A DNA stretch of 64,000 nt from Paramacrobiotus metropolitanus. Its lineage: Eukaryota; Tardigrada; Eutardigrada; Parachela; Macrobiotidae. The DNA lies in assembly GCF_019649055.1 (NCBI RefSeq), contig NW_026570237.1:1116001-1180000 (forward strand), read 5' to 3'. The notes below the pieces were generated by a model. That model was not told the DNA's origin, did no database searches, and saw nothing but the letters and a program-made list of their open reading frames with translations. The translations under genes were made by a program, and so were the position numbers. This document shows positions 11,645-34,631 of this stretch, piece after piece. Position 1 is the stretch's first letter. Each line of letters starts with the position of its first letter.

Positions 11645-12377
11645 TCATTGATCCTGATATTTTGGCCGGCTACGATAGTAGTACAGTTTCCGGCTGAAAG
11701 ACTGCAACAGCTGTATTTCCGTTAAACCGCGTGCTTTCTTGGAGACGACAGCCGGGTGATAGCCGTTGATATAAGCTACAAAAAGAGGAAAAGAAGCAGT
11801 AACTTTCCGTTGATTCGTAAGTACATAAAATAAATTCATTAATATTAGTTTCCGCGAACTGCGTAATACCAGCAATTAAGTAGCAGCTGCATTAATTACC
11901 CTCAAAAAGATCTTCCACAACACAAACTCACGTCATATTATAACGATAAACAAACGATACCCTAAAGTGTTATATACTTTTATATTTTCAACAGTTATTA
12001 TATCTTGATTATATCGTTACTAATATTAAAATTAATAATATTGTTGCGCTAATATTCCTTCAAAAATTAAACGCGATAAAGCAGAACGACCTTACATAAA
12101 ACATCCTGGAGTTGCTCTCGGCCCAAGGCGTGCTTCAGACCGAACCGGTCGCCGGTGAACAACGCCAGCATGTTCTCCGTGGTGCCGAACAGCAGCTCAG
12201 CCAAGTTCACCGCGTCAATCCCCGGCCGGTTGGGGTGCAACTGCACTTTGAAGTTGTCCCAGATCGCTTTAGGTAGATAGGTGCGTGCTCCCGGGAAGAG
12301 GGTCACCGTGCCGGGCGTGCGACCGTTCCACACCTGGCGCAGGTTGTGTAAGATCTTTTTCTGGGCATCCGTACGCT
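11645..12377 (-). CDS. BEN-like terminal cassette without its own N-module (behind M3)
   Basis: Two exons, 12096-12377 and 11645-11775. The first begins after a phase-1 acceptor (CCATAG) and includes VTLFPGARTYLPKAIW, LAELLFG and GREQLQDVL, the same pattern as the BEN-like exons of the complete genes. It ends at a strong GTAAGG donor, again phase 1. The second reads SYINGYHPAVV and stops after KYQDQ. No N-module exon lies between it and the last M3 exon at 13228. Its length (282 plus 131 nt) keeps the frame if spliced to M3 exon 4 at 14763, giving 498 codons in total. It is either an alternative end for M3 or an orphan left by duplication. Confidence 0.6.
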
Positions 12378-13227
12378 CTATGGATCACAACACCGGTCGA
12401 CAAAGAAAACACAATGGGCTGGCACTCAGCCTGAATAGACGGTTGTACGCCGTACGAGTAAGGGAAAGCGTGCCGGTACTTAGCACAAATTCGTAAACAA
12501 GTACTGCACTTTCGCACACTCCCAAACAATTTTTTGCGGAGTTTTACGGCATTCTGTATCCGAATAATTTGTGTGCAAAGGCGTGAAAACTGCACAAGTT
12601 TGCGCCGAGGATTTTATTTTGCCATATAATTCCCCAACTATATAGAAGCGGCTGCCGATCGAGGCGATAAAAAGTAAAACAATCTACTCGTACCGGCAGA
12701 GAAGTGAGTCCGTTTCTCGCGTCAATGGGTGTTTCTTCTGTTTTTTTTTTGTTCTGATGGATTCCTTTCACTTGAATGAATTATTTAGTGTTGTCAGTTT
12801 ACAAAAAGTTTTCTGAAATTAATGGAGTCCTTTAGATTTAAATTCAAGCGTCGTGATTTAAAATCAAGGGGAATCGATTTTTTGTTTTCAGACGATGTTT
12901 TATGAAACATTCATAAGTAAGCTCAAGAAACTTTTTTTGAAAACTGAAAACGCCAATTAAATGACTCAAGTCACACGAAACAAAAAATCAAAAGGAACTC
13001 ATCGGAGACACGATAAATCGAGTGTCTCACTTCTCTGCCTGTACGAGTAAATCTGAAAGGTCTGTGCACATGACAGATCTAAAGTCAAGAATTTATTGTT
13101 ACACGACTGCGAAATCATGAAATTGTAGTGCAGGAATAAAGAAAAAAGAAAACAAGAACAACAATTATGTATGTACAGACTTGAAAGGTCACTGTATCGA
13201 AATCGTTAGCCACGGAGGATGAGGGCG

Positions 13228-16125
13228 TTACGGCTGTTTGCTGCGATTGCGGCGGTCAAATGCGATTATCTCTTGACTCTTCCAGTTATTCATGCCTGTC
13301 GTGATACTATCGCTTCTTGTAGATAACCCAACGGATTCCGCCCACGCTGCAAATAGTTCTTCGTAAATCCGTGAAGTAATAAACTGCTAAATGCAAGTTC
13401 CAGTTCGTATTTTGCAAGGTATTATTTTATTACCTTTTATGACGTCGATGAATGCACGACCAAAAATGCCCTGGACTCCAGATTTTCCCTTCTCTTGCTG
13501 ATCGGTGAGTTTTTTCAGCTCTTCAACCCCTTGATAGGGCGTGTCATCCTCGAGAAACAGATACCGGCAGAGATCCGCCATATAGGAGCCCTCCGTTTTA
13601 TCTCTTTTTCTGATGCTGGATTCCAGGAATTCCTTCTTGCCGATTTCGATGAAGATTCTAGTCCCCGGAAATCCTTGGATCAACAGAACTTTCTCGTCAC
13701 CGTCGATCTCGAATGGGAAACGATATCCTAAAGCAAGCCTGGCTATTTACACCCAAAATGTATCAAGAAACGTTCCAACGCCAATTCAGATAAAAAGGAA
13801 GCTCGATTTCTAATACCTGCATGCACTGGCTCAAGAGGAAGGAATGCTCTGACAAACAGCGATTTTGTAATCCCTCAAAGCTGCTGTTCCCTACTTACCT
13901 ATTTTTCCCTAATACGATCCGCTAAGAAAGGAAAGCACTAAAAGGGGTAAAGAGATCCTTGACGAAATTTGTCTGCCTACTGACTCCCGCCAGACTACAG
14001 CTAACTTGCTTGTGCCAAAATGGCAAACCGCTGCACTATATAGTATATAATTTATGCTTGAACCGAATTATGCTATTTTCGCATTAATGTCCGGCAAAGC
14101 AGCATGAGATTTTCGGTGAATTTGTATACGAATAAAAAAAAATACTTGAGATCGTTTTCCTTTTTGAAGACACAAAAGTCAAGTGTTCCGTCAGAGGATA
14201 ATTTGGGAAAGTGGATAATTCGATCAGCCTCGATCGACTTAGCAAAACGGCGGATAACTTCGTAAGACGTCGGAGCAAACCGACTCACAAAGTGAAATTA
14301 TTTAGACTCCTTACTGCTTAATCTGGCGGTACCATCACTTGGCTCCGATGTACTGGTGTGGTGTGGTGCGGGCTTCCGAGGTTTGACTGATGTACCTACA
14401 GTAAGCGGCAAATCGGACTTATTCAACATCACATGCAAACCATCACCTGTAGACTTAGTTTTGAGTCTCATTAATAAATCTCATTCACAAAATAATTTAA
14501 ATGCAAAAATCTGCGTTATAAAGGTACAAAAATCCGAAACTGCATATACTAGAATAACAGTTTTGCGTCTCTAATGATTAATTTTACTGACAAAGATCAT
14601 TACTGTCATCATAATCATAATTGTTGCCGACACCTAAAATCATCATAATTTAATAATAATTAGGATGAACAATTAAATATTCAGCAGAATTAGACAAAAA
14701 GCAGAAAACGAAATATCCATCGCCTTAGAAAACTGCACAAAATATACAACCACTGAACTAACCCGAAGCTGAACCGCTTCCACAATGTCCGCTGCCGTCT
14801 ACGGGTTCGTTCACTTCCGGGCTATCAACAGCGCCGTCGCCAGTGTCTTAAAACGCAACCAGATACACAGTCACAAATATAACTGTATGGTAATAATGGT
14901 AAGATAGTTGTACGATAGTATGATAGGCTTTCAAAAATAATTGTACGATAGTTATCCGCACCGTCTGCTGTGGATGGACCAGGAAGTTCAGCATCGAAGC
15001 CCAGTGCGAATTCATCGTTATCTTCTACAAGAACAACACGGACATTAGCGGAGTACAAGAAACACAACAGCCACCAGCGATCTCGTACCATCAGCAACGG
15101 GGAGGCCGCCGGTATCATAATCACTCTCCATGGGAGTGTCCTCCTGCGATAGCGACGCATTGGCATGTCGGGAGGATGCTTCGGCATCCACAGCATCCGG
15201 TACGAAGAGGGCGTTGAGATCAATCGGCTGACGACGACCATGAACAGGCGCACTGCCCGTAGCATCGTTTTCCGCAGTGGTATGCGCAGATCTGTAAATG
15301 ATAGGTTCCGTAACAGAAATACTAATCGGAAGATGTCGGAAGCAAAACGCAAATCAGCGCTACAATAAAAAACTTTAGCATGTTATGGGGGTACCTCGCT
15401 CTTGTTATCCGCGGCGCTGTTGTGGCACTGGCCTGTGTCTTCCGTTTTTCCTGCTGCCTCAATTTTTTGGGCGGAGTTTTTGAGCGTCCGGGCCAGTCGC
15501 CAGGCACACCGGGCAAGGCGCTGTCCGACTCCGAGTCCCACTGTGCATTCGCCGTTAGATCGCGCTTCTCTCTCTGTTTCATCTTCTTAGCCACTGGTTC
15601 CGCCACAAACATGTAGTTCTCCCCCGTATCCTCATCCCCCTCCGCAGTAGCCCGGTTCTCCTCTTTATCTTCTGCCAACTCTTCGTTTTCCTGCAGAATG
15701 CCCGCGTGCTCCAGCAGTTTCATGAGATCGTCCTCGTCGGCCAAGAATCGTTTTCCGATGATGGTTTTCACGTAACTGCCGCTCAGCAGCGTGTCCCCGA
15801 TATACACTGAAGGGACTAGAAGCAGCTGCTGGTTCTCCTCGGCCTGGCAGATGCGCACGCTCTTGCACATGCGGGGCAGAATGCCGCGCAGATCCACCTG
15901 GAAGAAGACCACTGTCTCCGCTGAGTGGTCGATCGCTTTGCGCCAGTATGAAGGATTCGACTCCGGATCCACGCCGACCACTTTAACGAGATCTTTGTAG
16001 GACATGGCTGCGGGGGACGCTGGTACGATCTGGTTGAATTTGGTGGAGGCGCGGAGAACGGGACGGGCGCTTGTCACAGAGATTCCCGTTGGAAGCGACG
16101 AAGGAATTGCTCGCTGGCGTTTCAT
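13228..16125 (-). CDS. M3: N-module plus BEN-like regulator, family copy 3
   Basis: Exons 15395-16125, 15089-15291, 14962-15024, 14763-14846, 13434-13727 and 13228-13346 give 497 residues in one frame. Exon 1 is about 130 nt longer than in M1 or M2: its basic tail is duplicated, with KKMKQREKR followed about 40 residues later by KKLRQQEKR. The N-module is otherwise nearly identical to M1 and M2, even at silent sites. The linker exon has GRRQPIDLNALF and exon 3 has FALGFDAELPGPS. The BEN-like exon reads GYRFPFEIDGDEK, RIFIEIGKKEFLES, YMADLCRYLFLE, and the last exon AWAESVGL with a KSQEII helix. A nuclear regulator is inferred. A second BEN-like cassette at 11645-12377 is phase-compatible with exon 4, so two protein ends are possible. 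Confidence 0.82.
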
Positions 16126-16433
16126 GGTACACGGTTACAGCCAAAGAATGGAGCAGATTTTCAAACGGTAATTTGCTACTACTGTGCGCACTATATGGAG
16201 TAACTTCTGTAATGGAATCCAAATGTACAATAAATTTTATAACACGGGCAATGATACGACCGTACCAGTACACGAGAAGTCAAAAAAAGTTGAAATCAAA
16301 ATTTTCAAAACCAACAATAAAAATTCAGAAAGCGTTTGATTACAGTACGGGCTTGTCACAGCTTGTGAGTCTGACTGGCAGCGCAAAGCCTCAGACTCAG
16401 CTGCACGAGAAATCCAGGGTCGGAGATGATAGT

Positions 16434-16440
16434 AACCGCC
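16434..16440. promoter_or_regulatory. AACCGCC element upstream of M3
   Basis: TAACCGCCAATCGGGGGCGG about 310 bp before the M3 start, a palindrome at 16433-16455 like those of M1 and M2. The sequence AATCCAGGGTCGG precedes it, also shared. Confidence 0.5.
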
Positions 16441-16882
16441 AATCGGGGGCGGTTGCGTTTGGCGGTAATTGCATAAAACGGAATTTTTACGAATCCTCTG
16501 CTATGGTCGTCAGTCGTGTTTGTGCCATTCATCGGTTAAAATGTTAAAAATGCAAGGCTGAAACAATTCCCTAATTTATCGAACGGTGAATAAAATCAAT
16601 ATTATGACCAAGTTCGGGACAATATCAATACTTAACACAAGCAGCCACGTATAATTCCACAATTACTTAAATGAAATAAAGTTAATTACAGATACACCGT
16701 AATTCTGTTTTACGTTACTGTATCCTTTCTTCGAACACGAACAAGAATACTGACGAAGAAGCAGAGAAATGTTTTTAAAATATCCAGCTGCAGACTCAGT
16801 GCAGGGTACAAATGGATAGTGGAGACTGGCATGTGTGCAGAATGCAGATATCCTGTGTGATTACGCCTCTTCTTCACCGTTG

Positions 16883-17354
16883 TCAGTTTTCTGGCTTCTG
16901 CCGTGGCTGTTTCTTATAGCCAAAGCGGGCTCGATACTTGGACAGATGGGAACCGAGAGTCTGCCCGAAACTCCGCGGGACTGCTCCCGGGCACTGTTTA
17001 TCCGACAATTTGGAAACGAAATCTACAAGCCGAAAATAAGAAGAACAATTTATTCAACAGGGCGATACATCCATCTGCTGGAGCGAATCTGTAGGCACTC
17101 ACGTTGAATGGCCTGTACCATTCGCTTATGGCACTGCGTGAGTCCCCGCTGGTCATTCTGCGCCGCGCTGGCCAAGTACCGGTGCACTCCGTCCTCGCCG
17201 CCCAGCAGAAATACGGCCAGGTTGCCGGCCAGATTCGATTTGGATTTGGCGCGGGATATTATGGCTTTCAGATCGCTGGGATCGATGTACACGCCGCTGT
17301 AGGGCGCCAGTTCCCGTTTGCCGGCACGCTTGATCTGATACGGATATTTGTCTC
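16883..17354 (-). CDS. BEN-like terminal cassette without its own N-module (behind M4)
   Basis: Exons 17103-17354 and 16883-17022. The first opens in phase 1 with GDKYPYQIKRAGKRE, then GVYIDPSDLKAIISRAKS, LAGNLAVFLLGG and HKRMVQAIQ, and ends at a GTGAGT donor in phase 1. The second reads HFVSKLSDKQCPG and stops after RQKPEN. This is the clearest BEN-like sequence of the window, with the VYI...L..A pattern typical of BEN domains. It lies downstream of the M4 MADF exon and has no N-module of its own. Joined to M4 exon 4 (19027), the frame closes at 435 codons, so it could be an alternative 3' end of M4. Confidence 0.6.
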
Positions 17355-17872
17355 CTTCAAACAAGAATTAATACTGTTTTATGTATAATATAAGCAGAAA
17401 AAGAAATCAAATCCGCAACAAAATGCGTTTTTATCCACATAAAATACGGGTACGGTAATGATCCGCATTGAAAGTTGGTCGGAGCAAGCATACCATTGTT
17501 CGTTGTAATCGGAAGCAAACCATACCAACTTCTGTGTATTCGTCACTTTCATCATGATTTTATTATGCAACAGCAATATACAATACAAACATATGCATGC
17601 CAAACTTCGAAAAGATTTACCAGCAGAATTTAAAGCAAGGAAGTCTTTTAAACAAAACATACACAAAAGGACAGGTAATCAGAAGTATGAGCACAAATCC
17701 AGCAACTCGTCATCCCATTTCGCCAGGTTCAGTTTCCTGCAAAAATGCCTGCTATTAATGCATGGATGTACTTAATAATAAATACAGCTTAAAAGCGATA
17801 ATAAGATCCAACGTCAGAAGTTCGTTAAGGAAGGAAACAAAAACAGCATCCGAGAGACCTTGTAAGTTGTAA

Positions 17873-18015
17873 CTAACTGTATGTGTATATCGTCAATTTT
17901 CTTAGCTAACTAACTGTAACTTTTTAAACTAACTGTATGTGTATATCGTCAATTTTCTTAGCTAACTAACTGTAACTTTTTAAACTAACTGTATGTGATT
18001 AGCGTCAATTTTCGT
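17873..18015. repeat. 56-bp tandem repeat, two and a half copies
   Basis: A 56-bp unit starting CTAACTGTATGTG is repeated at 17873-17928 and 17929-17984, and a diverged partial copy follows. It lies between the M4 MADF exon and its downstream BEN-like cassette, on an otherwise AT-rich spacer. Confidence 0.85.
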
Positions 18016-18129
18016 ATCACCATTTTTAAAAAAACTGCATTCAAAAGTACACTGGCAATTTCGATCTTGTATAAAATCGGGGGTAAAATAGCTCAACCTA
18101 GCGCGTACCTATAATGCCACCCGCCGTCC

Positions 18130-20428
18130 CTACGCCAGCTGCTGGTGGCGCAGACCGTGGTTTTTCGTACCCGACCATCGGTCCAGCACCACGCGAACGG
18201 CGTTCTTCGCACCCTCGCGTTTTCCTTCCGGCAGCTGCTCCAGCGACGACGAGATCATGTGTCCAAACGCAGATTCGGTAGCTTCCGGTTGGCCTGGTGC
18301 TTGTATACTATACGAAACTGCCGCCTCAGAACGCTTGTCTCGAGGCTTTGTCGCGATAGAATCACTGGAAATGCCAGCCGAGGCATTAGCATCAGCCACA
18401 ACGACATCCTTCGTCGCTCCAGGCACCAAAAACGGCTTAACAAACTGCATGGCGCGAGCGTGCGTCCATTCCGGAAACGGTGCTCCCCGCATGTCTTTTG
18501 GTGGGCGCTTGCAGGCGTGCCGGAAGCAATTAGACAAGGAATGCCATTTCTTTTTGCACTTATCCACGGACAACCCGGTACTTTCAGAAATCGTCTTCCA
18601 GGCTTTCACTTTCACTGGCAGTCTCCGGTATCTGGGATCGTTTCGGTGCCAAAGACAAGGATGAGCCCGAATAAGTCCAATCAAACTAGTTTCAAACTGA
18701 AGATCCTCGTCGGCATCCAAAGCTAACAGAATATTCGGATTGCTGGCCTGATGTGCGTTAACGAAATCCTCTAAAGAATTAAAGTTGTCGATGGCGCAAT
18801 ACCCGAGCACGTCAACGGAATTCTTAAGAAAGAAGAAGTGGATGCCAAGTACTCGAAATGGTCCCACAAAGCAGCTACTGCGCCATCGTGCAATACTTTC
18901 ACTTGTTTTTTTTTAAACACAAACATTTTTTTTCGGAAAAATCACGAAGTACTGTACTTTATCACAAACTTTTTCTCAACTGCGGATGGGTTATTGGTTT
19001 CACTTAAATCTCGTTTCCTCATTCACCTTGTTCAAGTCCTGAAGTCTCCTCCACTTCCGCTCCAGCTCTGTTCACTTCAGGCTCGGGAAGAAAATCGGTT
19101 GTTTCTTCGCCAGATTCTACACAAAACAGTCGTGTTCACCGCGCGTTCAAAATTCAAGTACACCAGTTTCGTTGCATAAAGAATAATTACCCTCCATTTT
19201 GGATGAGCCGGGTATGTCGTCTCCCAACGGCAAATTATCGTCATCTGAAAAGTACAGAAATTCCAAAAAAATTTCGATGAGAAAGAAAATCGCCACTGAC
19301 CATCGGCCACAGGTAAAGCATCATCATCGAAGTCGCCAGCCATGAGCGAGTCATCAGCCGGAAGCGCGTCGATTTTCTCCATCATGAGAAGCGGGGAGAG
19401 ATCAACGGGCTGACGTCCGCCACTCACTGACGATTTTGGCTCCGCTGCTTTTTGGGAGACCGGCGCTGCGGTTGACGATCTGCGAAGAAAACCAAACCAT
19501 AGTTGCACCACTTGAAAATGACTGAAATTCAACAGCCTCAAGGTAAACCCTCCTTGCACAAGATAACTACCAAAACAATGGGCAACCAGAATACTGCATA
19601 AGTGAAATTGCGCAAAAAGTGTTCGTATTACTATTACTATTACCCTGTAGTTTGTACTCCTGCCATACATAATAAAAGCACGCACCAAAACTTGCTTCTG
19701 TGATTTTACAAGGCGCAACTTTCATGCAAAACTGCAAAAATTTCAAAATCATAATCTACGGTTAGAAAAACAGTCCATATGCGTAAATATACGCAGTATC
19801 GAACTATGTCGTCAACAAAAAAATATTCGAATTTCTACCTTGTCGTGCGTCGTCCTGAAGACTGTGTAGATTCCAAAACAACTCGGGGTTTCTCCGCCAC
19901 CCGCGCTCTTTTCGGCTCTGGTTCAGGCTCAAGTGGCTCATTCTCGCCTGCTTCATCTTCCCCATGGCCGCCGTCCCCATCTTCCGCGTTTTCCTCGAAG
20001 AATTCCCCGTCCTCCTGCAGAATGCCCGCGTGTTCGAGCAGCTTCATGAGATCGTCCTCGTCCGTTAAGAAGCGTTTTCCGATGATGGTCTTGACGTAAG
20101 TGGCGCTGAGCAGGCTCTCCCCGATGTACACCGACGGCACCAGCTTCTCCTCTTCCTGGCAGATGCGCACGCTCTTGCACATGCGCGGAGTGCTGCCGCG
20201 CAGATCCACTTGGAAGAAAACAACAGTCTCCGCTGAATGATCGATCGCTTTGCGCCACGACGACGGACTCGCCTCGCAATCCACACCCACCACCTTCACC
20301 AGCTCTTTGTACGACATGAATTCCGGGGCAACTATGTGGATCTGGTTCAGTCTAGTGGAGGGCCGAAGAACGGGTCTTGGTCGGGCAACTATTGGTATCG
20401 CTGACGTTCCAATACGCTGTCGTTTCAT
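18130..20428 (-). CDS. M4: N-module plus MADF-BESS regulator
   Basis: Exons 19839-20428, 19301-19479, 19191-19244, 19027-19116 and 18130-18770 give 517 residues in one frame. Exon 1 begins MKRQRIGTS and holds the N-module; the tail has the basic block PKRARVAEK. Exon 2 has GGRQPVDLSPLL, exon 3 DDDNLPLGDDIPGSS, exon 4 a glutamate-rich segment. The terminal exon carries a MADF domain at residues about 334-415 (LIGLIRAHPCLW, then WKTISESTGLSVDKCKKKW) and a BESS-like helix near 472-502 (FGHMISSSLEQLPEGKR). MADF binds DNA and BESS mediates protein contacts in insect Adf-1-type factors, so a sequence-specific nuclear factor is expected. A downstream BEN-like cassette (16883-17354) is phase-compatible. 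The same layout recurs in M5. Confidence 0.85.
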
Positions 20429-20666
20429 TTTTGAATGTTGTCCTGTTGTCCGGACGAAATCAAGAACCTGAATAGACTGCAGATTCAAGCCAGAGACTAC
20501 GTGACCTAACACTTAAAGGAATATCCACAATAATTGATTGAAAAAACCCTTTTCAACTTTCACTTGGAAAAATAGAAGGCAAAGTCACAACTTCAAAAAG
20601 TCAGATCTGAAAAGTAAACGAAAATGAAATTCCAAGACTGTCTGCAGAAAATATTTACTTGCCTAC

Positions 20667-20732
20667 CGACGTAGCTGACTGCTAGAGGGGGCACCATGCG
20701 TTTAAAACAACGCGCCATCTGCTCGACCGCCC
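20667..20732. promoter_or_regulatory. Conserved upstream block of M4
   Basis: The block CGACGTAGCTGACTGCTAGA at 20667, continuing into a G run and GCACCATGC, is almost repeated upstream of M5 at 26650, and both lie about 240 bp before the start codon. A variant GACCGCCC motif follows at 20725-20732. Confidence 0.5.
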
Positions 20733-21360
20733 TTGAGCACCGTCTGCTGATGGCAGCACTGTTTTTGGCGCTCCCCTGTTCACGGTTATGGTTTTTTCGG
20801 TTCGCAATTTCGCATCGGTACGAGAACTGGCTACCTGCCAGTTTGTACCTCGTAGCCAAAGCAGTTATGCAATGCCAACAACAAACAAACTTAAACCGGT
20901 AAACCAGATGAGAAATACGGCTGCGATTCTCCGTGAACTGCTTGATAAGAGGGCACGAGATGAGTAACAACGATATAAATCATAAGATCAATAAGATCAA
21001 TGCCGTTTTTGGAAACGCCAACACACAGGACAATCCTGTGTAGTTAATTATTTATTGCGGCTATTTTGTATCGGCACTTGTGCTCAGATGCCTTTAAAGT
21101 TGCAGGTGCTGAGTGCTGACTATTTCTCAACGCGGTTTTTCCTCTCTAGATTGCTTTATAAACTTGTTATTATTGCATGTTATTGAAACTAAAGAAACAA
21201 ATTCCGCAACCACGAAAATAACAATTAGAACAGTTATCAGTTACAAAATCGGCATCGGGCAAAATATTCCAGTGCGATCTCAAACAGTGCAGCCAAAATG
21301 CATGTTATAATACCATAAAAGATTTTCAACAGAGAAATAAACCAGAAATTTTCCATCAGC

Positions 21361-22013
21361 TCACTTCGCAGCTCCTTCAAACGTACGCAGCCGGTCAGAA
21401 TAGCTCTTACGTAATTTCCCCTGGATCTTTTCCACATCCAGAGCCTCTGTCCATTTCGAGTCGGGATGCTTCCTGATCATGCAGCGCTGATACCATTTCA
21501 CGTGATCTGTCAATTATCACAATATATAATTTGGCTAATCAACTGACACTGTTGCCCTAACAAAGAACGGTAAATTCTCGATTAACAGGAAAGCCAAAAA
21601 AACTCTCACTCCAAAATGCCACCCAGTTCTGTCTGCCTAAGACCTTGGCCAGCCCGACTCCTTTCTGCTTGTGTTTATGCGCAATGGCAATATTTTTATT
21701 ATCCATGATGACTTTCATCAGCGCTTTGGCATATTTGGAAGCCTTTGTAATTCTGGCATCCGCTCTCAGCTCACCCAGCTTGACAGCGCTAACGTAAAGG
21801 TCACCTTCTGCATCCAGTTTCACGCAGCCGTACTTCTTGGCCTCTACGTCGGTCATCAAGAAAGTGAATGGGACAATGTTGACAGCTGCCGAATAAAACA
21901 GCATCTTAGAACATAGCAGACCTTTCGTGTATTTGAATTTTTTATTTCACCCATTTTCGGGTTATTCCTGGATAGCGGAACAGGCAATGTCGGTCTTTCG
22001 TTGTCCTCCAGAT
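21361..22013 (-). CDS. Second BEN-like terminal cassette behind M5
   Basis: Three pieces: a short linker exon 21951-22013 (DLEDNERPTLPVPLS), a BEN-like exon 21610-21885 and a last exon 21361-21506. The BEN-like exon reads AVNIVPFTFL, DLYVSAVKLGELRADA, YAKALMKVIM, KVLGRQNWVAFW; the last reads NHVKWYQRCMIRKHP and stops after EGAAK. All junctions are phase 1 and all internal exons are multiples of three. No N-module exon belongs to it: the nearest upstream is M5. The cassette joins in frame to M5 exon 4 (24951). The domain call is weaker than for M1 because the start (GYKFPF in others) has changed to AVNIVPF. Confidence 0.5.
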
Positions 22014-22536
22014 CTGTAAACCACAAAAAATACTTCATCAGTAACTCTCTACAGCTATTTTTGACGAAATTTTACGCTAAAAACTATAAGAGGATAATAT
22101 CACGCATTATTAAAAAGGAGGTATATGTGTGTGCCTTTACATCGTAGAAATTGGGACTGTTTATCGAAAGGATTTAAACTACAATAACACAGCTACACAG
22201 TACACAGGCACTTATACAGTAATTAAATCGTGCGCCAGTACCATTTCTTACAAAACTAGATTTTAGCAAGTCGATGCCTCGGCTAGCTGGGAATCAACGA
22301 TTTGAGTACTTAGTTCCCGTGACAAAGTTACATTTGCTGTTATGGTTTTCTCGGTTCGCAGCAGTCGTAAAAAAATTAGAACAGTAACCAAACTAAACAC
22401 AAGAATACCACGGATACGCTGATCTCTTCGTAAACTGTTTAAAACAACAGGGAACAATACAGGAACAACGAATATACGTAATATTAATCATTAACATCAG
22501 TGCCGTTTATGGCTTCCAAACCAATAAAATTAAAAA

Positions 22537-23396: not shown

Positions 23397-24101
23397 CTGC
23401 AGTCAATACTGTAGTGATATTGTCAAAACAGAACAAGGAAGTTTTCAAAAATTAGTTCGATTAACTCTTCTAAATTTCTAATACGGTATATTGCAATCAA
23501 TGCTGCACTAATCAAACCGCACAATTTAATTCGTACATACGATGGTATTGAATTACGTACTACCAGTAGTTTTCTGCCAATATAAACGCGAAATTCCTCA
23601 TTTAATTTTCACTCTTTATGAGATGTGTTGTTTGTTTGGATATACGAAATTTCGTGCATAAAACGGTAGATAATAAATCAGAGATACTGTTTTTAACATG
23701 AAATACATTTGATCGTGCCAAACGTGGAAAATGATGGCAGTCAAAATCAGTGAATCTGACAGAAACCCATCTTTATTTACAACAACAAGTGTGCGAATAC
23801 ATTTCAGGGAGTACAGTACATAACTGTGAAGCGCCAAACAATTACAGCGCTTTCGGGCAAAACGAACAGTAAGAAGATCGACCATCACTCGGAAGTGCAG
23901 CTTGCCTTTTCCATTTCGTCAGGCACACACATCCCTGCAGCATTAAAGCCAGAATATGACACAAGGTTAGTTAAGGAAATAAAAACAGCATCGGAGTAAG
24001 TTATCGTCTAACTGTTTGTAATTATCGTCCAGAAAATTTTTTAAAAAAACTTTAAAAAAAACTGCAATAAAAAAAATTGCAATAAAAATTACACAAGTAA
24101 T

Positions 24102-26405
24102 TTAAATTTGCCATAGAAAATCAAGAATAAAACAGCTGAACTTAGCGTACCTAATACCAACCGCCGTTCGTTCGCAAGCGGCTGGTGGCGCAGAACCGCG
24201 GGTATTGGTACTGGACAACCGGTCCAGCGCCACGCAAACGGCATTCTTCGCCTCTTCCCGTTTCCCTTCCGGCAGTTGCTCCAGACACGAAGAGATCATC
24301 TGTCCAAACGCAGATTCGGCCGCTTCCTGTTGGCCCGGTGGTTCTACACTATTCGAAGGCTGTGTCTTAACGGAAGCAGCCACAACACCGCCTTTCTTCT
24401 TGCGTGACGTCAGAAAAGGCTTCAGAAAGCGCATGGCGCGCGTATGCTTCCATATCGGAATGGGCTCTTGGGAAGCGTCAGTAGGTAGCCGTTTGACTGC
24501 ACGACGGAAGCTACAGTACAAGGTCTGCCATTTCCTTTTGCAGTTATCCACGGGAAGCCCAGTGCTTCCGGAAATCGTCTGCCAGGCGTCTACCCTCACC
24601 GGCAGTAACGGGTAACCGGGATCGGTCCGGCACCACAGACAAGGATGCGCCCGAACAAGGTCAATCAGAGCAGCTTCGTCAATATCATCGGCGGCATCCG
24701 AAACATTCCGGTTTCGCGGCCGATGATCGCTAACGAAATCCTCTAAAGAATTATAGTTCTCGAAGGGCTAAACCCGAGCACGACAACGGTCAAGTGACAC
24801 TCCACGTGCTCGAAATTGAATGCAACAGTGGCTGCGTAAATTTTTTTAATGTTCGGATCATTTCACAAACTGTACGCAATATCATTCGACTAGAAAATCT
24901 GGAAAAATTTAACGATTTCCCAGAAAAGGCTGCCTGCCTAATTTTCCTACCTGGATCAAGCCCGGAAGTCTCCTCCATTTCCGCTCCGCCTCGGTTCGAC
25001 CCAGCGTCAGGAAGCACGTCAGTCATTTCTTCGCCGGATTCTACAAAAATGATCGTGTTCATCTCGCTTTCAGTTATACATGTTCCCTTCGTAGACAAAT
25101 ACCCTCCATTTTGGATGAGCCCTGCATGCCGCATACCAACGGAAAATTGTCAACATCTGATAAGTACAGAGAATCAAAATAAATTTTGTTGACGAACAAA
25201 CTCCCCACTGACCATCGGCCGCAGGCAAATCCTCATCATCGAAGTCGGCAGCCATGAGAGAGTCATCTACCGGAAGCGACACTTGCCGAACTCGACTGCT
25301 GGAGGGCAACATGCTGTTTGGTTTGTCCAGCAGGAGAAGAGGGGAGAGATCAACAGGCTGGCGCCCACCACTGGCTGACAATGAAGGTTCGGCTGTTATT
25401 TGGGAAATCAGCGCTGTGGCTGAAGATCTGCAGAAAACCCATAAACACTTGATATAAACTTCGCTTTCACAGAAACGGGCTGCATACGAAAATTAGCATG
25501 CAAAATTATTAAGTCATCTTTTATTACACAAGAAATCAACTATTAACAAACGAATATTTCACAAACGAAGCATCCGACAAAATGCACTCGCTATATTCTT
25601 TGCTCACGCTATGAAAATAAAGCACGTTCGGCACTGACGAGCCATGCTCAAGCCAAGCACAATTTCATCAAAAAGCTCGAACGCTAAAAATCCCAGCACC
25701 ATTTCCCCAGCCAGCGTGCATTTACGGTGCTGGGTTCATGTCTTGTACAACTGAGTTGCACTTGCATAGTTGCATTCTGCTCGACAACAGCAACGTAACA
25801 GTACCGCATTCAAACTCTTACCTGGTTATTCTTCGTCCTGAAGACAGCGCAGATTCCACAACAACCTGTTCTTTTTCCGCCACGCGCGCTCTTTTCGGTT
25901 CAGGCTCAAATGGATCATTTTCGCCTCCTTCTTCTGCGCCATGGCCGCCGTCCCCATCTTCGGCGTTTTCCTCGAAGAATTCCCCGTCCTCGTGCAGAAT
26001 GCCCGCGTGTTCGAGCAGTTTCATGAGATCGTCCTCGTCCGTCAAGAAGCGCTTTCCGATGATGGTTTTGACGTAAGTGGCGCTTAGCAGGCTCTCCCCG
26101 ATGTACACCGACGGCACCAGCTTCTCCTCTTCCTGACAGATGCGGACGCTCTTGCACATGCGCGGCAGCACGCCGCGCAGATCCACTTGGAAGAAGACAA
26201 CGGTCTCCGCCGAGTGATCGATCGCTTTCCGCCACGACGAGGGGCTCGCCTCGCAATCCACGCCAACCACTTTCACTAACTCCTTGTACGACATGCACTC
26301 CGAAGCAGTAACCTGCATCCGATTCAGTTTCGTAGAGGAGCGGAGAACGGGTCTCGCTCTAGCAACAACTGGTATCGCCGAAATTCCAATTCGCTGTCGT
26401 TTCAT
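24102..26405 (-). CDS. M5: N-module plus MADF-BESS regulator
   Basis: Exons 25822-26405, 25213-25427, 25103-25156, 24951-25040 and 24102-24742 give 527 residues in one frame. Start MKRQRIGIS aligns with M4. The N-module is followed by an acidic tail and PKRARVAEK. Linkers: GGRQPVDLSPLL, FPLVCGMQGSSKMEG, and a Glu/Gly-rich exon 4. The terminal exon has MADF features (LIDLVRAHPCLW, WQTISGSTGLPVDNCKRKW) and a BESS-like helix (FGQMISSCLEQLPEGKR). The MADF exon aligns with that of M4 over its full length, so the two genes arose by duplicating the whole unit. The last residues after the BESS helix differ from M4 and run to a later stop. Two further phase-compatible cassettes lie downstream. Confidence 0.85.
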
Positions 26406-26649
26406 GTTGATCGTCGTCTAGCAGCTTTTGTCCGGATGGGATTAAAAATCACTGTAGATTCCAACTACTTATTCTAACGCTGTTAGTGAATACCGAAAAT
26501 AACGTACTTAAAAGACCCCTTTAAACTGCAAACAAAAAGAAAACGAAGTAAAAAGTTGTGAAAACATCGCAAAAAACGAAAATTTGGAGAGTGGAGAAGT
26601 AAAGCTGGAAGTTTGAAAAAACCTGCACTTGCAACTGCAGAAATTTCAT

Positions 26650-26713
26650 CGACGTAGCTGATTGCTGAAGGGGGGCACAATGCTACTGGCACATAGGTTT
26701 TTTACAACCGCCC
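26650..26713. promoter_or_regulatory. Conserved upstream block of M5
   Basis: CGACGTAGCTGATTGCTGAA followed by a G run and GCACAATGCT matches the M4 upstream block. AACCGCCC follows at 26706-26713, 300 bp before the start codon. Confidence 0.5.
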
Positions 26714-27123
26714 GCGAACGCGATATATCGATTGGGGATGCCTACGGTAGTTTGGCGCTGTAATAATTGTGCTTTTGTTTGTTCTGCGATGTTTAAATTT
26801 CAAATTACGAAATAGTGCCACCATGATTGTACCTTTATTCTTGTTACTTTGGTGCTGCTATATAATAAAATTACCGCAGTCTGCTTTTCTGCGGCTGCTA
26901 TGCTTGCAGTACTGCATATTACGACGAAAGAGAGGAGTAAATCAACAGCAAGGTTTCCGAAAAAATTATAACATGGATCCAGTTATTATCGGGAAACACA
27001 AATGTAATTACGTGAACTGTGAACAAATTGCCATTCGCAATCGACAAGGGACAAACAAAATACAACTAACAGAGGCAAAAAGGAGTGAACGTGTTACGCA
27101 GCGATTTCGCGTTGACTAGGAGA

Positions 27124-30020
27124 TCACCACGGAAGATTATGTTTCTTGGCGTAGGCCTTGATGTGATAATCCTTCCAGGCGTTAAAAGCCGCAGTCACCA
27201 TACCACCCTTAAACCCCTCTTCGCGGCCTTTCACGTGAGCGGCAGTGAAATAGGCTGTAAGGAAATTTTACTAATAAATATATTTCCGTCGTCGTTCCAG
27301 CAGAACTTACATTCAGCCGCTAAAATAAATTCGTCGCCCAGGAGGGCCTTAATCCCGGGCTGTTGTTTGTCGTTTTCCGCGAGAAACTGCGCCCGTTTCT
27401 CGTACAGCAGTCGCAGGCCATCGCCTTTGTAGTCGGAGGTTCCTTGGATGAGGTAGGCAAGCAGCTGCTTCAGCCATTTGCCGGGTTCGAAATCGCGACC
27501 GGACGTGACTAGCCGGTCATGGAGAACTTTCTCGATCCAGATCGGTTTACCAGGCAGATTGGGCACCAGTTCTACTTTCTTCTTTTCGGTCCCCTTAATT
27601 TCGTAAGGAAACAGTGTAGCGTGATCTGCAAGAACCAGAAATGTAAAAACTATTAAGTGCGATAAAAAAAGTGCCTTCAGCGGCGTCAGAACTTTTCCGA
27701 GCTTTATCAGCTATTCAGCAGCCATAAAAACCGAAAAATATTCACGAAATTAATATGGAAAAGCATCCTACGTTTGTGATTTTTCAATAAATACGAACAC
27801 TAGCATTAACCGATACGTAAGCCAAAAACCTTTACTACTCTAGAATTTGTAATACTGTTTTCTAAAATGCGACCGACAGTGGTCCGACACTATAGGCGTT
27901 TCCATTTCCTAACGCATACTCTCATAGTCAGTCAGATACACAGTATATCGGTGGAAAACGGCTTGTTCCAAATCGCCTGTCGGACGTGTATAAGTTTTCA
28001 ATTTTTAACCTATTATTTCACAAAATGAGAAAGGGAAAATCGGGGATAGATACAATCATACAAAGAACATCTGGGATGTATGGCGATCATCCGAACATAT
28101 GCATTTGTTCTCTTTCGAAACAGTGCGATTTGTCATACTGTGACTCATACATATAGACTGATATAGTGCAGAATAATCCGAAATTCAATAAATATTGTAC
28201 GTAAGAAAGACTGCCCTCAATCACCTTGAACAGGGTCAGAACTATCATCCCTTTCCGTTTCCTTTCTGCTTAACGGACTCTGGGGACTGTTGGCTGCTCC
28301 ACAATCAGCCTCTAAACAGTCAAGACTTCAGCAATATCTGACAGTAATGTGCCTCTAAAATGTGCCCATTACACACCAGATTCCATGTCGGAAGAGTGGC
28401 CCATGTCGCATCCCAGTGGCAAATTGTCCTCATTCACTGTAATACACAGTACACCGATGAGTCAAAAAACAATAATTCTGATCAGTAGAGCAATCGCAGG
28501 CCTTACCGTCAGCACCAGGCGAGCCATCATCATCGACATCGGTAACCATAGCAGTATCGTCTTCCGGCAGTGAGACCTTCTCAACACCGGACGACAACAG
28601 GCCGCCGGTGTTGCCGAGCATGAGAAGCGGGGAGAGATCAACAGGTTGGCGTCCGCCATTCACTGGCAATTTCCGCTCGGCTGCTTTTAGTGAGACTGTG
28701 GCTGCTGCTGCTGAAGATCTGGAAAAAGTAAAATGCGCATGAAAACAAATAATCACGTCCACATCCCACCGACTTCTCCACAGCTTCATCTGCACTGAAC
28801 AATAACAGCATATCAAGTTCATAAATAAAAATGAATAATCTGCCGAAAAATATTCGCAGTGCTATACATGCTTGGCAAAAGGTACTGCAAAAAAGAACGA
28901 ATAACAATGTCTTTAGCTTTTTGGAAGGGGGGTGCGCAAAACCTCGCGCCAGCAGGGGGTTGCGCAAAACCTCGCGCCAGTTGGGAAATGGCCGAAAATT
29001 TCAGGAAAAACGTAGAAAAGTGGCTAAAAAAAGCCACTTTTCTACGCTTTTCTTCTATTGTAATTTTCGTTGCGCCAGCGCCAGTCGCATTTTCTTGCGC
29101 CAGCGCCAGCTCCCGGCACACCTTTTTCCCGTTTTCTCCCTCCGGGAGAGGGGGAGGGGCGCGCGCCAGTGCCCCCCCCTTAAAGACGGGCCTGACAATG
29201 TCAATTAGACAATTACAGAGAAAATAACAAATACCGCTTTTTCCTTTCATTAATCCACACAAGATGATACAAGCACGGCGGGGCATATTACTGTACCTAT
29301 AGTTATAACCTAAATACAGTGCTCGCAGATACTCATGTATGATGTATCGCAAACCCGTACTATATTTAGCAATCAAATTTTTCCATGAGTAACAGCCCAT
29401 TCAAATTCTAACCTGGTTGTTCTTCGTCGGCCCGAAGACTGCGCGGGTTCCATCACAACTTGTCGTTTTTCCGCCACTCGCGCTCTTTTCGGGTCTGGTC
29501 CAGGCTCATTTGGCTCATTCTCGCCTGCTTCATCTTCACCATGGTCGCCGTCCCCATCTTCCGCGTTTTCTTCGAAAAATTCCGCGTCCTCGTGCAGAAT
29601 GCCCGCGTGCTCGAGTAGTTTCATGAGATCGTCCTCGTCCGTCAAGAAGCGCTTTCCGATGATGGTTTGGACGTAAGTGGCGCTGAGCAGGCTCTCCCCG
29701 ATGTACACCGAGGGCACCAGACGCATCTGATGGTTCTCCTCCTCTTGACAGATGCGCACGCTCTTACACATTTTTGGCACCGTGCCGCGCAGATCCACTT
29801 GGAAGAAGACAACTGTCTCCGCCGAGTGATCGATCGCTTTGCGCCAATATAAAGGATTTGATTCCGGATCCACTCCGACCACCTTCACCAGCTCTCTGTA
29901 CGACATTGACTCCGGAGCAGCTACTTGAATCCGGTTGAGTTTCGTGGACGGCTTAAGAACGGGCCTCGCTTTGGGAGCTACTGGTATTGCCGAAGAAGTT
30001 CCAATTCGTTGTCGCTTCAT
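27124..30020 (-). CDS. M6: N-module plus BEN-like regulator
   Basis: Exons 29413-30020, 28507-28718, 28377-28436, 28225-28311, 27311-27625 and 27124-27254 give 470 residues in one frame. Exon 1 starts MKRQRIGTSS; the N-module uses the VDPESNPLYW form and the tail carries PKRARVAEK. Exon 2 has GGRQPVDLSPLL, placing M6 with M4 and M5, yet its C-terminus is BEN-like rather than MADF: HATLFPYEIKG, KPIWIEKVLHDRLV, KQLLAYLIQG, ALLGDEFILAAE, with last exon SYFTAAHVKGRE and a FNAWKDYHIKAYAKK helix. So the end module was exchanged within a subfamily. Intron 1 contains a hAT-like MITE at 28912-29194. M6 is divergent from M7, with 493 bp between start codons. Confidence 0.82.
28904..29202. mobile_element. 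hAT-like MITE in intron 1 of M6
   Basis: The 8-bp direct repeat ACAATGTC lies at 28904-28911 and 29195-29202. The right end reads as CAGGCCCGTC inward from the repeat, typical of hAT ends; the left end has lost or changed its first bases. Inside are a tandem TGCGCAAAACCTCGCGCCAG, a hairpin with 15-bp arms at 29011-29025 and 29032-29046, and repeated GCGCCAGC units. No transposase frame. A non-autonomous element. Confidence 0.65.
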
Positions 30021-30513
30021 TTTGGTCGTCCGACTGTACGGATAGGAAATAGTCACGTAGATGTTGCTCCTTGTTACTCTTAGAGTCTTGACACTAATGA
30101 TGCACAGAAATATTTAAAAAGAACCAGAAAATCAAAACTCAGCGAATGATTAAAGTGCAAAAACAATTTGGAATGCAAAGACAAAAGTTTTGTCACAAAA
30201 CTGTCACAAAAGTCACAAAACTGCAAATAGCTCAACAGCTGCAAAAGTTGCACCGCTGCGTTCATGTCGTTTGCACAACCGCCCCCAAATACGGTGGACG
30301 CCTGAACCGAGCTCCCAAGTACCTACGTACAGTGCGAGTCATTCTCAAAGTCAGTTGTTTCTGTAGGTCTCACTGCGAGTGTTTTTGTTTTGATTTGTAA
30401 TAATTTGTGTACATTTTAAAACCATTGGTTGTGATTTTTGAATTGTGAGTTTTGATCGTTATTAGTGCTTACTTACTTTTTAGCAGTTGACTCGGTTGAG
30501 TTATTATCGGGAG
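30021..30513. promoter_or_regulatory. Bidirectional promoter region of M6 and M7
   Basis: These 493 bp separate two divergent family members. AACCGCCCCC lies near the middle (30277-30286), about 256 bp from one start and 230 bp from the other, matching its spacing in single-direction copies. Short TCACAAAA repeats lie at about 30180-30222. Confidence 0.5.
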
Positions 30514-32970
30514 ATGCACAAACAACGGATTTCCAAGGCGCCTGCAAGGCCAGCCAGAACATCGGTGCTGACTTCCATCAAGACCATCGCTACCCGATCG
30601 ACGCTGAGACCGTCCACCCGATTCAACCAGATGCAGCCGATCGCCATTCCCAGCATGTCATACAAAGACCTGATCAAAGTGGTCGGCGTGGATCCGGAGT
30701 CGAATTCTTCATACTGGCGCAAAGCGATCGATCACTCGGCGGAGACAGTGGTCTTCTTCCAGGTGGATCTGCGCGGCACGCTGCCCCGCATGTGCAAGAG
30801 CGTCCGCATCTGCCAGGAAGAAGAGAATGCCTGCATCCGTCTGGTGCCGTCGGTGTACATTGGAGAGACGATGCTCAGTCCCGCGTACATCAAAACCATC
30901 ATCGGACGGCAGTATTTGGACGATGAGGATGATCTGATGAAACTGCTGGAGCACGCGGGAATCCTCGAAGTGGAGGCAGTGAGTGAAGACCTGGAGGAAG
31001 AAAGGGGGTGTGATGAGGATGAGGCAGCCGCGGAAGAAGAGGAATATACGCCCTCCGCAAAGAGAAGGAAATGTGCGACGCAAGTTCAGACGCTGACAGT
31101 ACCGCGACCAGATCCGGTTGTCAGTAAAAGCAGGTACCGCTCAGATTTTTTCTGTACTTTTTCCTATAATTTCTAATATTCCTGTGTATTTTTTTAAAAT
31201 TTTTTCTGTTCTCCCGTATTTTTCCCTTTAATTTTCTTGTAATCGGTGTATTGTTTCTCTGTAATCAGTAATATTTCATATTTTTCTGTATTCCTGTTCC
31301 CATAATTTGTATTTTGTTATCTAATTTAAACGAATTGATTTTATGATAGCTTTTTACATAATTAAAAGAGTACTATCAGTGACGGTATTTAGCTCCTTAT
31401 GAAATATGAAAGTACATCTTTGCGCTTTAGAGCTGCTTATTAAAATGTAAAAGCGAAAAATGTTTTAAAATGTTTGATTATATTTAAAAACGTTTAAAAT
31501 ATTAAAAAATGTTAAAAAAAAGTTTTATAATGTTTAACAGCAAAATGTATTTTACCTTCGGTATTACAGACAAGCAGCAAGTAACTTTTCCCTGATTATG
31601 TAGAAGCGCGTTTTCGGAACGCTGTTATGATTTTCTAGACCGCAGGTTGTGTATCCATCAGGGAAGATCTCCAACGTGTACAGCAGTACAGTTAATCGTA
31701 AAGTTCACCAGTCGCGGGATGCCTCCGGAGATCTCCCAGGCCAGGGTGCGGCAATTAAACTGCCGTCCTCCGGCATTCCGCGGTCTTCTTCGCCGGAACA
31801 CGACGCAATGGATACTGATGTGGACTTTGATGAACTCTCCGATGGTGGTAAGAATGCGGTCAGTTCGAAATTTTTCTGCATGATTATCGCGGTTTTTAAT
31901 GCCTCCGCTCTCCCCTTAAGAAAATCCGCTGACACCAGCTGGCAACGAATGCTCCCTGGAATCAACGGAATGCAGTGTTCCTGGATCATCCAAACCTTAC
32001 GGTGCGTCCGCGATAACCTGTTTCGGCGATAAAAATAACAATGTGCTTGAACCGGTCTTGACTGATTTTTAAAGATATTGTTATTTTGTGCAGAGTCCAA
32101 TGGAAAACAAGTGCGTACAACGGATACCATGCAGGACGGAACAGATGAGGAAGGCGATTTAGGCAAGAAATCAGGTTGGAATGTTTTGAAAGACGGTGAT
32201 TGCGTGTTATATGCACAAATTTATTTAACTGTCTACCCGGCACGATACAAAAACTCGTACTCGTAGAAGTCGTGGTGAATTACAACAATCCAGTTAGAAC
32301 TTCGAATAAATGTTTTATTATACAATTTTTTAACTGAGAATTAGTATCTGTAGTAGAATGTTGCGGTGAGTGTTAGAATAAAAGTGGTTTGTTTTATTAC
32401 TATCTCTGTCGTTGCAAACACAAAGAAATTTACGTTGTTTATTAAAACACGCACAGTTTTTACGCCTCTTCCTAACTATAAAGCGATTTGAAATGGGTGT
32501 AGCTGCTTCGAGAAACTTCCGATAATTACTTTTCCGAAAGCTGTTACCCTTTTGCAGTTTTGCTTAAAAAACCAAGGAATCCAACCCAATCTACCGGCAG
32601 CGAAACCGCCATTTGGTTTTCCCATGACGAAGTGGGTGTGTTGATTGACACCGTGGCAACCCTCCCCGTTCTGTGGAGCGGTGAAGTGACCGTGCCGGGC
32701 CGCCCAGCGGACGTCAAACAGCGTGCCTGGGATACCGTGGCGGCTGCCGTCAACCGCGTCGCCGTGGAGAACGGCGAGCCCATCAAGAGCGGTCTTCAGT
32801 GTCAGAAAAAGTGGCGGATTGTACTGAGTGTTTTCCTGCGGATCGTGCGGACCCATGGGAAGGCCGGCAAGGTCATCACCACCTGGGTGTGGGCTCCCAA
32901 GATGATGTTCGTCCTCTCGGAGTCCAGTTTGTATTTGAAGAACGTACAAGAGCATCTGTGGAAGGAGTGA
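30514..32970 (+). CDS. M7: N-module plus Myb/SANT-like regulator (only + strand copy)
   Basis: Exons 30514-31133, 31639-31847, 31921-32001, 32094-32174 and 32558-32970 give 467 residues in one frame. The start MHKQRISKAP replaces the usual MKRQR. The N-module is conserved (SYKDLIKVVGVDPES, LMKLLEHAGI), followed by an acidic run and KRRKC. Intron 1 is phase 2, the others phase 1, as in the rest of the family. The linkers are diverged: exon 2 lacks the RQPVDL motif but keeps the MDTDVDFDELSDGG end. The terminal exon is a Myb/SANT-like DNA-binding domain: FSHDEVGVLIDTV, LPVLWSG, AWDTVAAAVN, CQKKWRIVLSVFLRIV, TTWVWAPKMMFVL. This matches the ends of M8, M9 and M11. No second cassette is seen downstream on this strand. 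Confidence 0.82.
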
Positions 32971-33481
32971 ATTACTACATGCGTCCATGATTATTCTCTT
33001 TGATTTCTGTTCTTTGTTCATGAATTTTGGTAGTTACTTCTGTTGGCATAGCGTTGTTTGTTCATGTAAATAGTACTAAATACCAAACATTTTCAGAGAT
33101 TATCGGTATACTACGGGCACAATACCGTGTATTATGAATCTCGTAGTAAATCGAACAAGTTTACTGCCCTTCGTTATGCGTAATTGCACACACCTGCCGT
33201 CTTTAAAATACATTTTTGCGGACGTTATTCCAAATACTTTTCCGAGTTGCCAAGAACAGAACCAGGTATGAGATAATGCGACTATGAAAGCAAAATATAT
33301 TCATAATCCATGTGAGAATCATAGCAGTTTCAACTGCCAAAAAAGAGCAAAATACTGCATTCGTTGAATAATCGTGTTCCCTTGCTCCATATATGTCCGG
33401 CAGCGTGGAAATTATGCAAACAGGAAAAAAGCGCAGCCGGAGACTATGCCCCATTCAAAAGATTTTTCCATGGTTGACGAA
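32971..33481. other. Convergent intergenic region, no gene recognised
   Basis: AT-rich spacer between the M7 stop and the last exon of the minus-strand cassette behind M8. The short open frames on both strands have no domain signal. Confidence 0.4.
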
Positions 33482-34221
33482 TCAAGACATCCTTTCAAGC
33501 CACCGACTTTTAGCAGCACAAGAATCCTTTGCAACCAGAATTGGCATCTTGGCAGATTTGGCTTTATTGGACTCCTTTATTGCATTTTTGATACGCCATG
33601 AGGCGAACCGCGACGCCAGATGGGTACTCAAGGAACATTTTAATTTCTTCTTTGGCATTGCACTTTCCAGATGACCTATCGGAAATTGTCCAAGTAAGGT
33701 TAATTTTCTCCAAAAAGGTATTTATTACAAATGTATATACAATACATGCCAAACTGTGGATACGTTACAGCTTATGGTTAGTCGTAATATTTTATGACAG
33801 TAATCAATGGAACATGTACACGTTCTTTTGATACGGACAATTTTACAAACAATTACTTGGTATTGCAGCTTACGTTCTAAAGATTCCAGAAACTTCTTGC
33901 CAAGCAAATACACGATTTGCCGTTGCTGTCTGGCATGCCACAAGGATTCCAGCCGGTTCATGCCCTTTATGCCGCCCACCAACGTGTAGAACATGCTCCA
34001 CGAGTAGAAGTCGATATTGTTGGTATGATTTTTGTACCACGGCAGAACAGCCTCTTCAACGTACACATCCGGCACATCCGGATGCAGGAGAATCTTTCCC
34101 GGACCGGGCTGCGAGAAATACCATTTTCCTGATTTGTCACCCAACCGCACGAGTTCCGGTGGAACAGTATACAACGGTTCCTTGACGCATTTGGCATCAG
34201 TACCCGTTTCGTCTTCTTCGC
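33482..34221 (-). CDS. BEN-like terminal cassette behind M8
   Basis: Exons 33874-34221 and 33482-33675. The first begins in phase 1 at GEEDETGTDAK and contains GKWYFSQPGPGKIL, DVYVEEAVLPWYK, WSMFYTLVGG and YLLGKKFLESLE, then a GTAAGC donor. The second reads HLESAMPKKKLKC, then RFASWRIKNAIKESNKAK and stops after RWLERMS. The order of motifs matches the cassette behind M5 (WYFQIPDP, YVDLDHKRLL, LMLRMIGG, LGTEFFKAIQ). There is no N-module between this and the M8 Myb/SANT exon. The cassette keeps frame with M8 exon 4, giving 500 codons. A plus-strand frame over 33393-33674 is its shadow. Confidence 0.55.
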
Positions 34222-34631
34222 CTGGAATTATGTACAAACATAATTATATGTGCGTATGTGGTTGAAAATGGTTTCATCAAATCTATGCATTTTTAAGAAA
34301 AGACAAAGTTAACAGCCACCAACGAAATGCAGCAGGGTGATTTTATTTCGCAATCCCATGTCGTCAACCGGAAAAGTATTTTCAAGGACATATTAGCAAA
34401 CAAATAATCTCGAATGCAAAATGAATTGTGCACATTATAGCACCCACATAACTTTAGCTTAAAACAGCAGAGACCAGAACTTCGTTTCCTCATATTAGTA
34501 ATAGAGTCAAATAAAAACAGCAGTAAGCGGCAGTAGTCAATGTCGCGAAATGTGTACAAAAATACGCTCAAAAATAATATTATAACTATGTATTGCATAA
34601 TTTTCCGCCTACATCACCGTAAAACGGGATG

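Follow-up and report, generated by a model that had tools for sequence, protein, structure and literature searches.

The window, i.e. the whole stretch of 64,000 nucleotides analysed here, carries a tandem array of genes which have a common N-terminal exon, the N-module (mapped by tblastn), and which are all on the minus strand except M7. Behind the terminal domain of M3, M4, M5 and M8 lie further terminal cassettes, and the question is whether these are alternative 3' ends of the gene upstream or parts of something else. The locus lola of Drosophila offers a model: one set of 5' exons is combined with a choice among several 3' terminal exons that encode DNA-binding domains. The preliminary description of the window predicted a comparable arrangement, with one start and several DNA-binding ends. 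The best single reading of the sequence is that the extra cassettes indeed serve the gene before them as alternative 3' ends, although its probability seems only just above even. This reading would be strongest at M8, then at M5b and M5c, and weakest at M3b.

In each gene of the array, the N-exon is followed by the linker exons E2, E3 and E4 and then by a terminal cassette, whose domain occupies one or two exons. The primary terminal is a BEN-like cassette of two exons in M1, M2, M3 and M6, a MADF domain in M4, M5, M7, M8 and M9, and an ETS domain behind M10. M1 and M2 have a single recognised end each, and they contain exons homologous to the linker exons of M3. When the whole genome (169.8 Mb, 533 contigs) was searched with the N-module of M3, there were 30 match rows, of which 16 are on contig C17, eight on C67, where they form a second cluster, and six on other contigs as singles; all but one of the 16 rows on C17 belong to the array, including its rightward continuation. 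The exons of the four genes that bear extra cassettes are the following.

15395-16125, minus strand: N-exon (N-module) of M3, from tblastn and the exon model, with a phase-2 donor
15291-15089 (E2), 15024-14962 (E3) and 14846-14763 (E4), minus strand: linkers of M3, with the E4 donor at 14763
13727-13434 (C1) and 13346-13228 (C2), minus strand: M3a, primary terminal, BEN-like, with 42% identity to the cassette of M1 and 37% to that of M2
12377-12096 (C1) and 11775-11645 (C2), minus strand: M3b, extra terminal, which has matches at 15 other places of the genome
20428-19839 (N), 19479-19301 (E2), 19244-19191 (E3) and 19116-19027 (E4), minus strand: N-exon and linkers of M4
18130-18770, minus strand: M4a, primary terminal exon, MADF (PF10545, E 2e-19), with its own stop
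17354-17103 (C1) and 17022-16883 (C2), minus strand: M4b, extra terminal, with relatives on C87 and C168
26405-25822 (N), 25427-25213 (E2), 25156-25103 (E3) and 25040-24951 (E4), minus strand: N-exon and linkers of M5
24102-24742, minus strand: M5a, primary terminal exon, MADF, 61% identical to the M4 MADF, with its own stop; ends set by eye
23396-23316 (linker, 81 nt), 23213-22806 (C1) and 22676-22537 (C2), minus strand: M5b, extra terminal
22013-21951 (linker, 63 nt), 21885-21610 (C1) and 21506-21361 (C2), minus strand: M5c, extra terminal
37159-36573 (N), 36099-35882 (E2), 35820-35758 (E3) and 35689-35600 (E4), minus strand: N-exon and linkers of M8
34632-35090, minus strand: M8a, primary terminal exon, MADF (PF10545, E 2.3e-7); acceptor approximate, ends set by eye
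34221-33874 (C1) and 33675-33482 (C2), minus strand: M8b, extra terminal, found at E 1e-5 by a profile of primary cassettes only
35545-35597, minus strand: repeat R1, 53 bp, beginning at base 3 of the intron that follows E4 of M8
34238-34290, minus strand: repeat R2, a copy of R1 which ends 16 bp before the M8b acceptor

The five extra cassettes behind M3, M4, M5 (two) and M8 are all present where the preliminary description had placed them, none has an N-module belonging to it, and the E4 donors (14763, 19027, 24951 and 35600) agree with the exon models. A sixth cassette, said to lie behind M12, outside these coordinates, is not confirmed: BEN-like profiles found none in 48-61 kb. For M5c, an acceptor at 21843 was dropped in favour of 21885 after its relatives had been aligned.

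Each of the five cassettes begins with a phase-1 acceptor and, when fused to N-E2-E3-E4, gives the whole number of codons announced earlier, stop included (498 for M3b, 435 for M4b, 497 for M5b, 455 for M5c and 500 for M8b). The values of M5b and M5c are those without their own linker exons, obtained by subtracting 27 and 21 codons; these linkers are multiples of three, as had been noted, and the fusions that retain them have 524 and 476 codons, stop included. Each fused frame has one stop, which is terminal. In all five cassettes the length of C1 is divisible by three, the C1-C2 junction is in phase 1 and the stop is in C2.

The sums are therefore correct, but the argument that was drawn from them is weaker than claimed. 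The N-exon donor is in phase 2 and E2 shifts the phase, so that the donors of E2, E3 and E4 are all in phase 1. It follows that the cassettes fit any of these three donors, but not the N-exon directly, and that the arithmetic cannot single out E4. In addition, the C1 acceptor is at the identical aligned position in seven of seven M5c relatives and in three of eight M3b relatives, the other five having a shifted AG which would also be in phase 1 (by eye). Since the acceptor phase recurs in the relatives, the five frame matches are not five independent coincidences; the match was rejected as plain chance, and the recurrence also speaks against taking it as strong evidence. A match is to be expected from shared exon ancestry, and frame fit alone is weak evidence for joining.

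The acceptors of the seven extra exons have 9-11 pyrimidines per 17 positions, which falls inside the range of 8-12 measured for 11 primary or linker acceptors. The M5b linker resembles E3 of M5 (none of 500 shuffles is as good), and the other four E3 exons are not clearly matched. The homology of the M5c linker to E3 is unsupported, as 6.8% of the shuffles are as good as the best of five comparisons.

The domains found at the ends bear on the second half of the prediction, DNA binding. Pfam recognises MADF (PF10545) in the primary terminals of M4 and M8, with 70.1 and 31.5 bits for a cut-off of 22, and there are homologues in M5, M7 and M9 and in another exon at 59.2 kb. With the ETS domain behind M10 (45451-45269, minus strand; PF00178, E 2.7e-15), the N-module carries DNA-binding ends of a third kind. 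According to these matches, the firmly identified DNA-binding domains, MADF and ETS, are primary terminals and not extra ones.

The extra ends are at best BEN-like, and "BEN-like" is a working label. Pfam BEN matches none of the spliced cassettes scanned (M1, M6, M4b and M8b), PF10523 exceeds its cut-off nowhere in the genome, Foldseek with a cassette model had no match at or below E 0.001 in the PDB or in viral libraries, and a spliced-cassette profile had no match in the PDB better than E 0.92. A profile made of primary cassettes only finds M5b (2e-10), M8b (1e-5) and M4b (0.25); leave-one-out profiles find the same three (2e-12, 3e-5 and 0.003) and neither M3b nor M5c; the exon layout is common to all five. 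DNA binding by the extra ends is therefore a prediction.

The N-module itself has no Pfam family over cut-off. No BTB domain appears when the frame of the M3 N-exon is scanned with Pfam, though the genome contains at least 150 BTB matches; a profile search of the PDB gave one unconvincing match (enolase, E 0.047), and the AlphaFold model has a pLDDT of 45.

Searches of the genome with the C1 exons, self rows excluded, show how the extra cassettes are distributed. For M3b there are 16 match rows, which fall on 15 places and show 34-63% identity; three of these places have an internal stop. M4b has two relatives (50% and 53%), and M8b has six, all at 26-33%. M5b has eight: one on C90 at 77% and others at 33-49%, among which are M8b and an N-gene of C67. 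M5c has nine: one on C149 (81%), seven at 60-73%, one of these with internal stops, and a weak one (E 0.9). The only relatives of the M1-type primary cassette are M2, M3a and one place on C12, and seven of the eight further rows of the M8 MADF type lie behind N-modules on C17 (two of the seven are the split M9 exon). As these searches depict them, primary and extra cassettes differ in their dispersal. M5c-type cassettes on C3, C32, C54, C235 and C251 have mutual dS values of 0.02-0.22, which correspond to recent spread or to haplotype copies; several near-identical places may be haplotype copies.

At the places inspected, C1 and C2 occur together in the M5c relatives of C149 and C251 and in the M3b relatives of C116 and C29; C90 has a linker and a C1 of the M5b type, and a C2 of this type was not found there. 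The genome search found no N-module on the contigs that bear relatives, except C67. Relatives of all five types are thus on other contigs, all but one of them without a recognised N-module, which makes it likely that the extra cassettes derive from 3' parts of other genes.

One link between N-genes and cassettes of the extra type is on C67, where the N-module of locus L040 (7528-7199) is followed by an M5b-type cassette with the two-exon layout of M5b; tblastn searches of this locus for MADF, ETS and FLYWCH exons were negative. L035 has a weaker BEN-like match behind its N-module (full profile E 1.5e-8, primary-only profile 2.6e-4). The remaining N-gene stretches retrieved at length, L039, L041 and L042, showed no recognisable terminal of such kinds. 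A Tudor-like partner of the dispersed relatives was suspected by eye at L047 and L050; there is no Pfam match, the two loci find neither each other nor the window, and such a partner is not claimed.

If the cassettes came from other genes, they might still be the 3' parts of independent genes of the dispersed family, whose first exons are short or unrecognised. This explanation, which we regard as unlikely, has the distribution of the five types on its side, since the contigs of their relatives have an N-module only in the case of C67, and also the fact that the M3b relatives on C116 and C29 share conserved, exon-looking blocks upstream of the cassette. However, no such blocks are detectable before M3b, the intervals upstream of the extra cassettes are just 413-927 bp long, and a copy of the E4 intron precedes M8b.

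The start codons divide the cassettes. In-frame ATGs are found just upstream of M5b and M5c (by eye), which is consistent with independent genes, whereas in M3b, M4b and M8b no such ATG stands between the domain and the in-frame stop before it (by eye). A scan of the upstream intervals for first exons (ATG, at least eight codons, a phase-1 donor that matches at least seven of nine consensus bases), which would miss very short or non-ATG exons, gave no candidate before M3b, M5b, M5c and M8b and a weak one of 13 codons before M4b. The scanned interval before M5b ran to 24140 and took in the last bases of the M5a exon.

The poly(A) signals say little either way, because the primary terminal M4a has none of the hexamers sought. 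AATAAA is present within 400 nt past the stop in one of the five extra cassettes (M5c), the other four having variant hexamers only, and M3a has its own AATAAA 131 nt past the stop.

A second rival, somewhat more doubtful still, sees in the extra cassettes remnants of tandem units or of captured exons which are not expressed as protein. They have no N-modules, and some members of the array look damaged, such as the rightmost N-module with its frame change and the M9 MADF exon, which is split. On the contrary, the five extra cassettes are free of stops over 129-182 codons and their splice dinucleotides are present. In a neutral simulation with 0.1 substitutions per site, the probabilities that the five frames stay open are 0.205, 0.29, 0.112, 0.179 and 0.094; their product, the joint survival, is about 1e-4, a value that leaves indels and splice sites out of account. 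Five open frames are more than chance.

Selection is directly visible in one case. Between M5c and its closest relative, on C149, dS is 0.74 and dN is 0.10, hence a dN/dS of 0.14 (bootstrap 95% interval 0.07-0.27), whereas neutral drift of one of the two cassettes since their split would give about 0.5 by our estimate. This comparison was run on the shorter C1 exon, with the acceptor at 21843. In a three-taxon analysis the M5c branch has a dN/dS of 0.16, with a wide bootstrap in which 9% of the replicates are at or above 0.7. M5c is under purifying selection. For M5b against C90, pS is 0.84 and pN 0.15; for M3b and M4b against their relatives, the synonymous sites are saturated and pN is 0.30-0.39; and the distances from M8b to its relatives are too large to exclude recent loss. 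With such saturation, a recent loss of function in M3b, M4b, M5b or M8b would be invisible.

A second link between an N-gene and an extra cassette is at M8. R1 and R2 are identical at 51 of 53 bases (96%, E 1.8e-20), the genome search found this sequence at no third place, and the M8a MADF exon sits between the two copies. GT followed by R2 and by the bases up to the M8b acceptor makes an intron of 71 bp, similar to the E2-E3 and E3-E4 introns of M1, M3, M4, M5 and M8, which measure 56-115 bp (from the coordinates). As one copy is at the E4 donor and the other at the M8b acceptor, with this implied intron, a former adjacency of E4 and M8b is the simplest account: only the 71-bp intron would once have lain between E4 and M8b, whose copies of the repeat are now separated by the MADF stretch.

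The order of events may have been either of two. Because the MADF type is at home in the array, it is as likely that M8b came later through recombination of two gene copies, bringing along a duplicate of the intron start, as that the MADF exon was inserted. A duplication of a 53-bp patch, E4 and M8b never having been adjacent, would also yield R1 and R2. No direct repeats joining donor to cassette were found at M3, M4 or M5; M4 has one local repeat of 46 bp (18016-17861).

Taken as alternative ends, the extra cassettes would work as follows. M3, M4, M5 and M8 are tandem copies of a gene with an N-module exon, three short linkers and a terminal domain, and each would bear one or two more functional cassettes past its first terminal (BEN-like in M3, MADF in M4, M5 and M8). 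If splicing passed over the first terminal, the donor of E4 (or of E2 or E3) would be joined to a later cassette at its phase-1 acceptor; one start would then give proteins which share the N-module and differ in their C-terminal domains. The cassettes would probably have been gained through 3'-exon capture, and at M8 the duplicated start of the intron would be the scar of a former short intron between E4 and M8b. Of this picture, the anatomy, the frame, the intact exons, the selection on M5c and the repeat at M8 are seen in the sequence, whereas the use of the junctions, the order of events and the binding of DNA by the extra ends are what we infer.

Trans-splicing, in which cassettes with promoters of their own are joined to N-module transcripts as at mod(mdg4), appears the least likely route: the formal anatomy is alike (common 5' exons and further 3' cassettes), the M7 N-gene is on the opposite strand (30559) and cassettes without start codons require a donor, but all five extra cassettes are on the same strand as an N-gene and behind it, so that cis splicing suffices.

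PMC12692577 describes, for mod(mdg4), common exons combined with alternative 3' exons, and trans-splicing from independent promoters. The array is similar to this locus in its common exons and alternative 3' exons, trans-splicing from independent promoters being a feature of mod(mdg4). As in lola, shared 5' exons are in frame with several 3' terminal cassettes, a likeness that is seen here at the level of sequence only, and a lola-like reading is plausible. Several features set the array apart from lola: BTB is not recognised in the N-module, BEN-like or MADF domains stand at the ends in place of zinc fingers, the number of ends per gene is only two or three, the gene itself is tandemly repeated, and the use of the ends is a prediction. 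The cassettes also differ from BEN-domain proteins such as NACC1 by having no Pfam BEN match, and the primary terminals, which are like those of MADF and ETS DNA-binding proteins, are joined to an N-module without Pfam family.

If the extra cassettes are alternative ends, the principle of lola and mod(mdg4), one start with several DNA-binding ends, would operate on another N-terminal module. The array would also display the process at different ages (the scar at M8, the close relatives of M5c and M5b, and the single-ended M1 and M2), so that comparisons inside a single genome could test how multi-ended loci originate. It is conceivable, though less likely than not, that an undescribed N-terminal platform module in the array, in which BTB is not recognised, goes on acquiring phase-1 terminal exons from dispersed genes, and that new DNA-binding ends build up in this way behind one start. 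M8 would be a recent step, the repeat of the start of the E4 intron marking the point at which a terminal exon was placed between E4 and another end. Multi-ended transcription-factor loci would then evolve through 3'-exon capture independently of BTB genes.

Some other features of the array are of interest. The M7 N-gene (30559-30987, plus strand) is head to head with M6 (30020, minus strand) and has its own MADF exon at 32617-32916. The M9 MADF exon (38544-38178, minus strand) is broken across two frames near 38440; unless an intron is present, the sole recognised end of M9 looks damaged. Around 48900-50900 (minus strand), frames that resemble a methionyl-tRNA synthetase gene break up the array (by eye). 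The rightmost N-module (61246-60874, minus strand) has a frame change around 60990-60986, which corresponds to a pseudogene or to an assembly error.

FLYWCH ends are known from mod(mdg4), and three FLYWCH exons (2490-2320, minus strand; 3331-3522, plus strand; 2405-2229 of locus L020, minus strand) were considered as further cassettes. They were rejected because in each an in-frame ATG stands directly before the domain. Pfam FLYWCH matches the exon at 2490-2320, the only one of the three that was scanned in this way, and all three look independent of the array.
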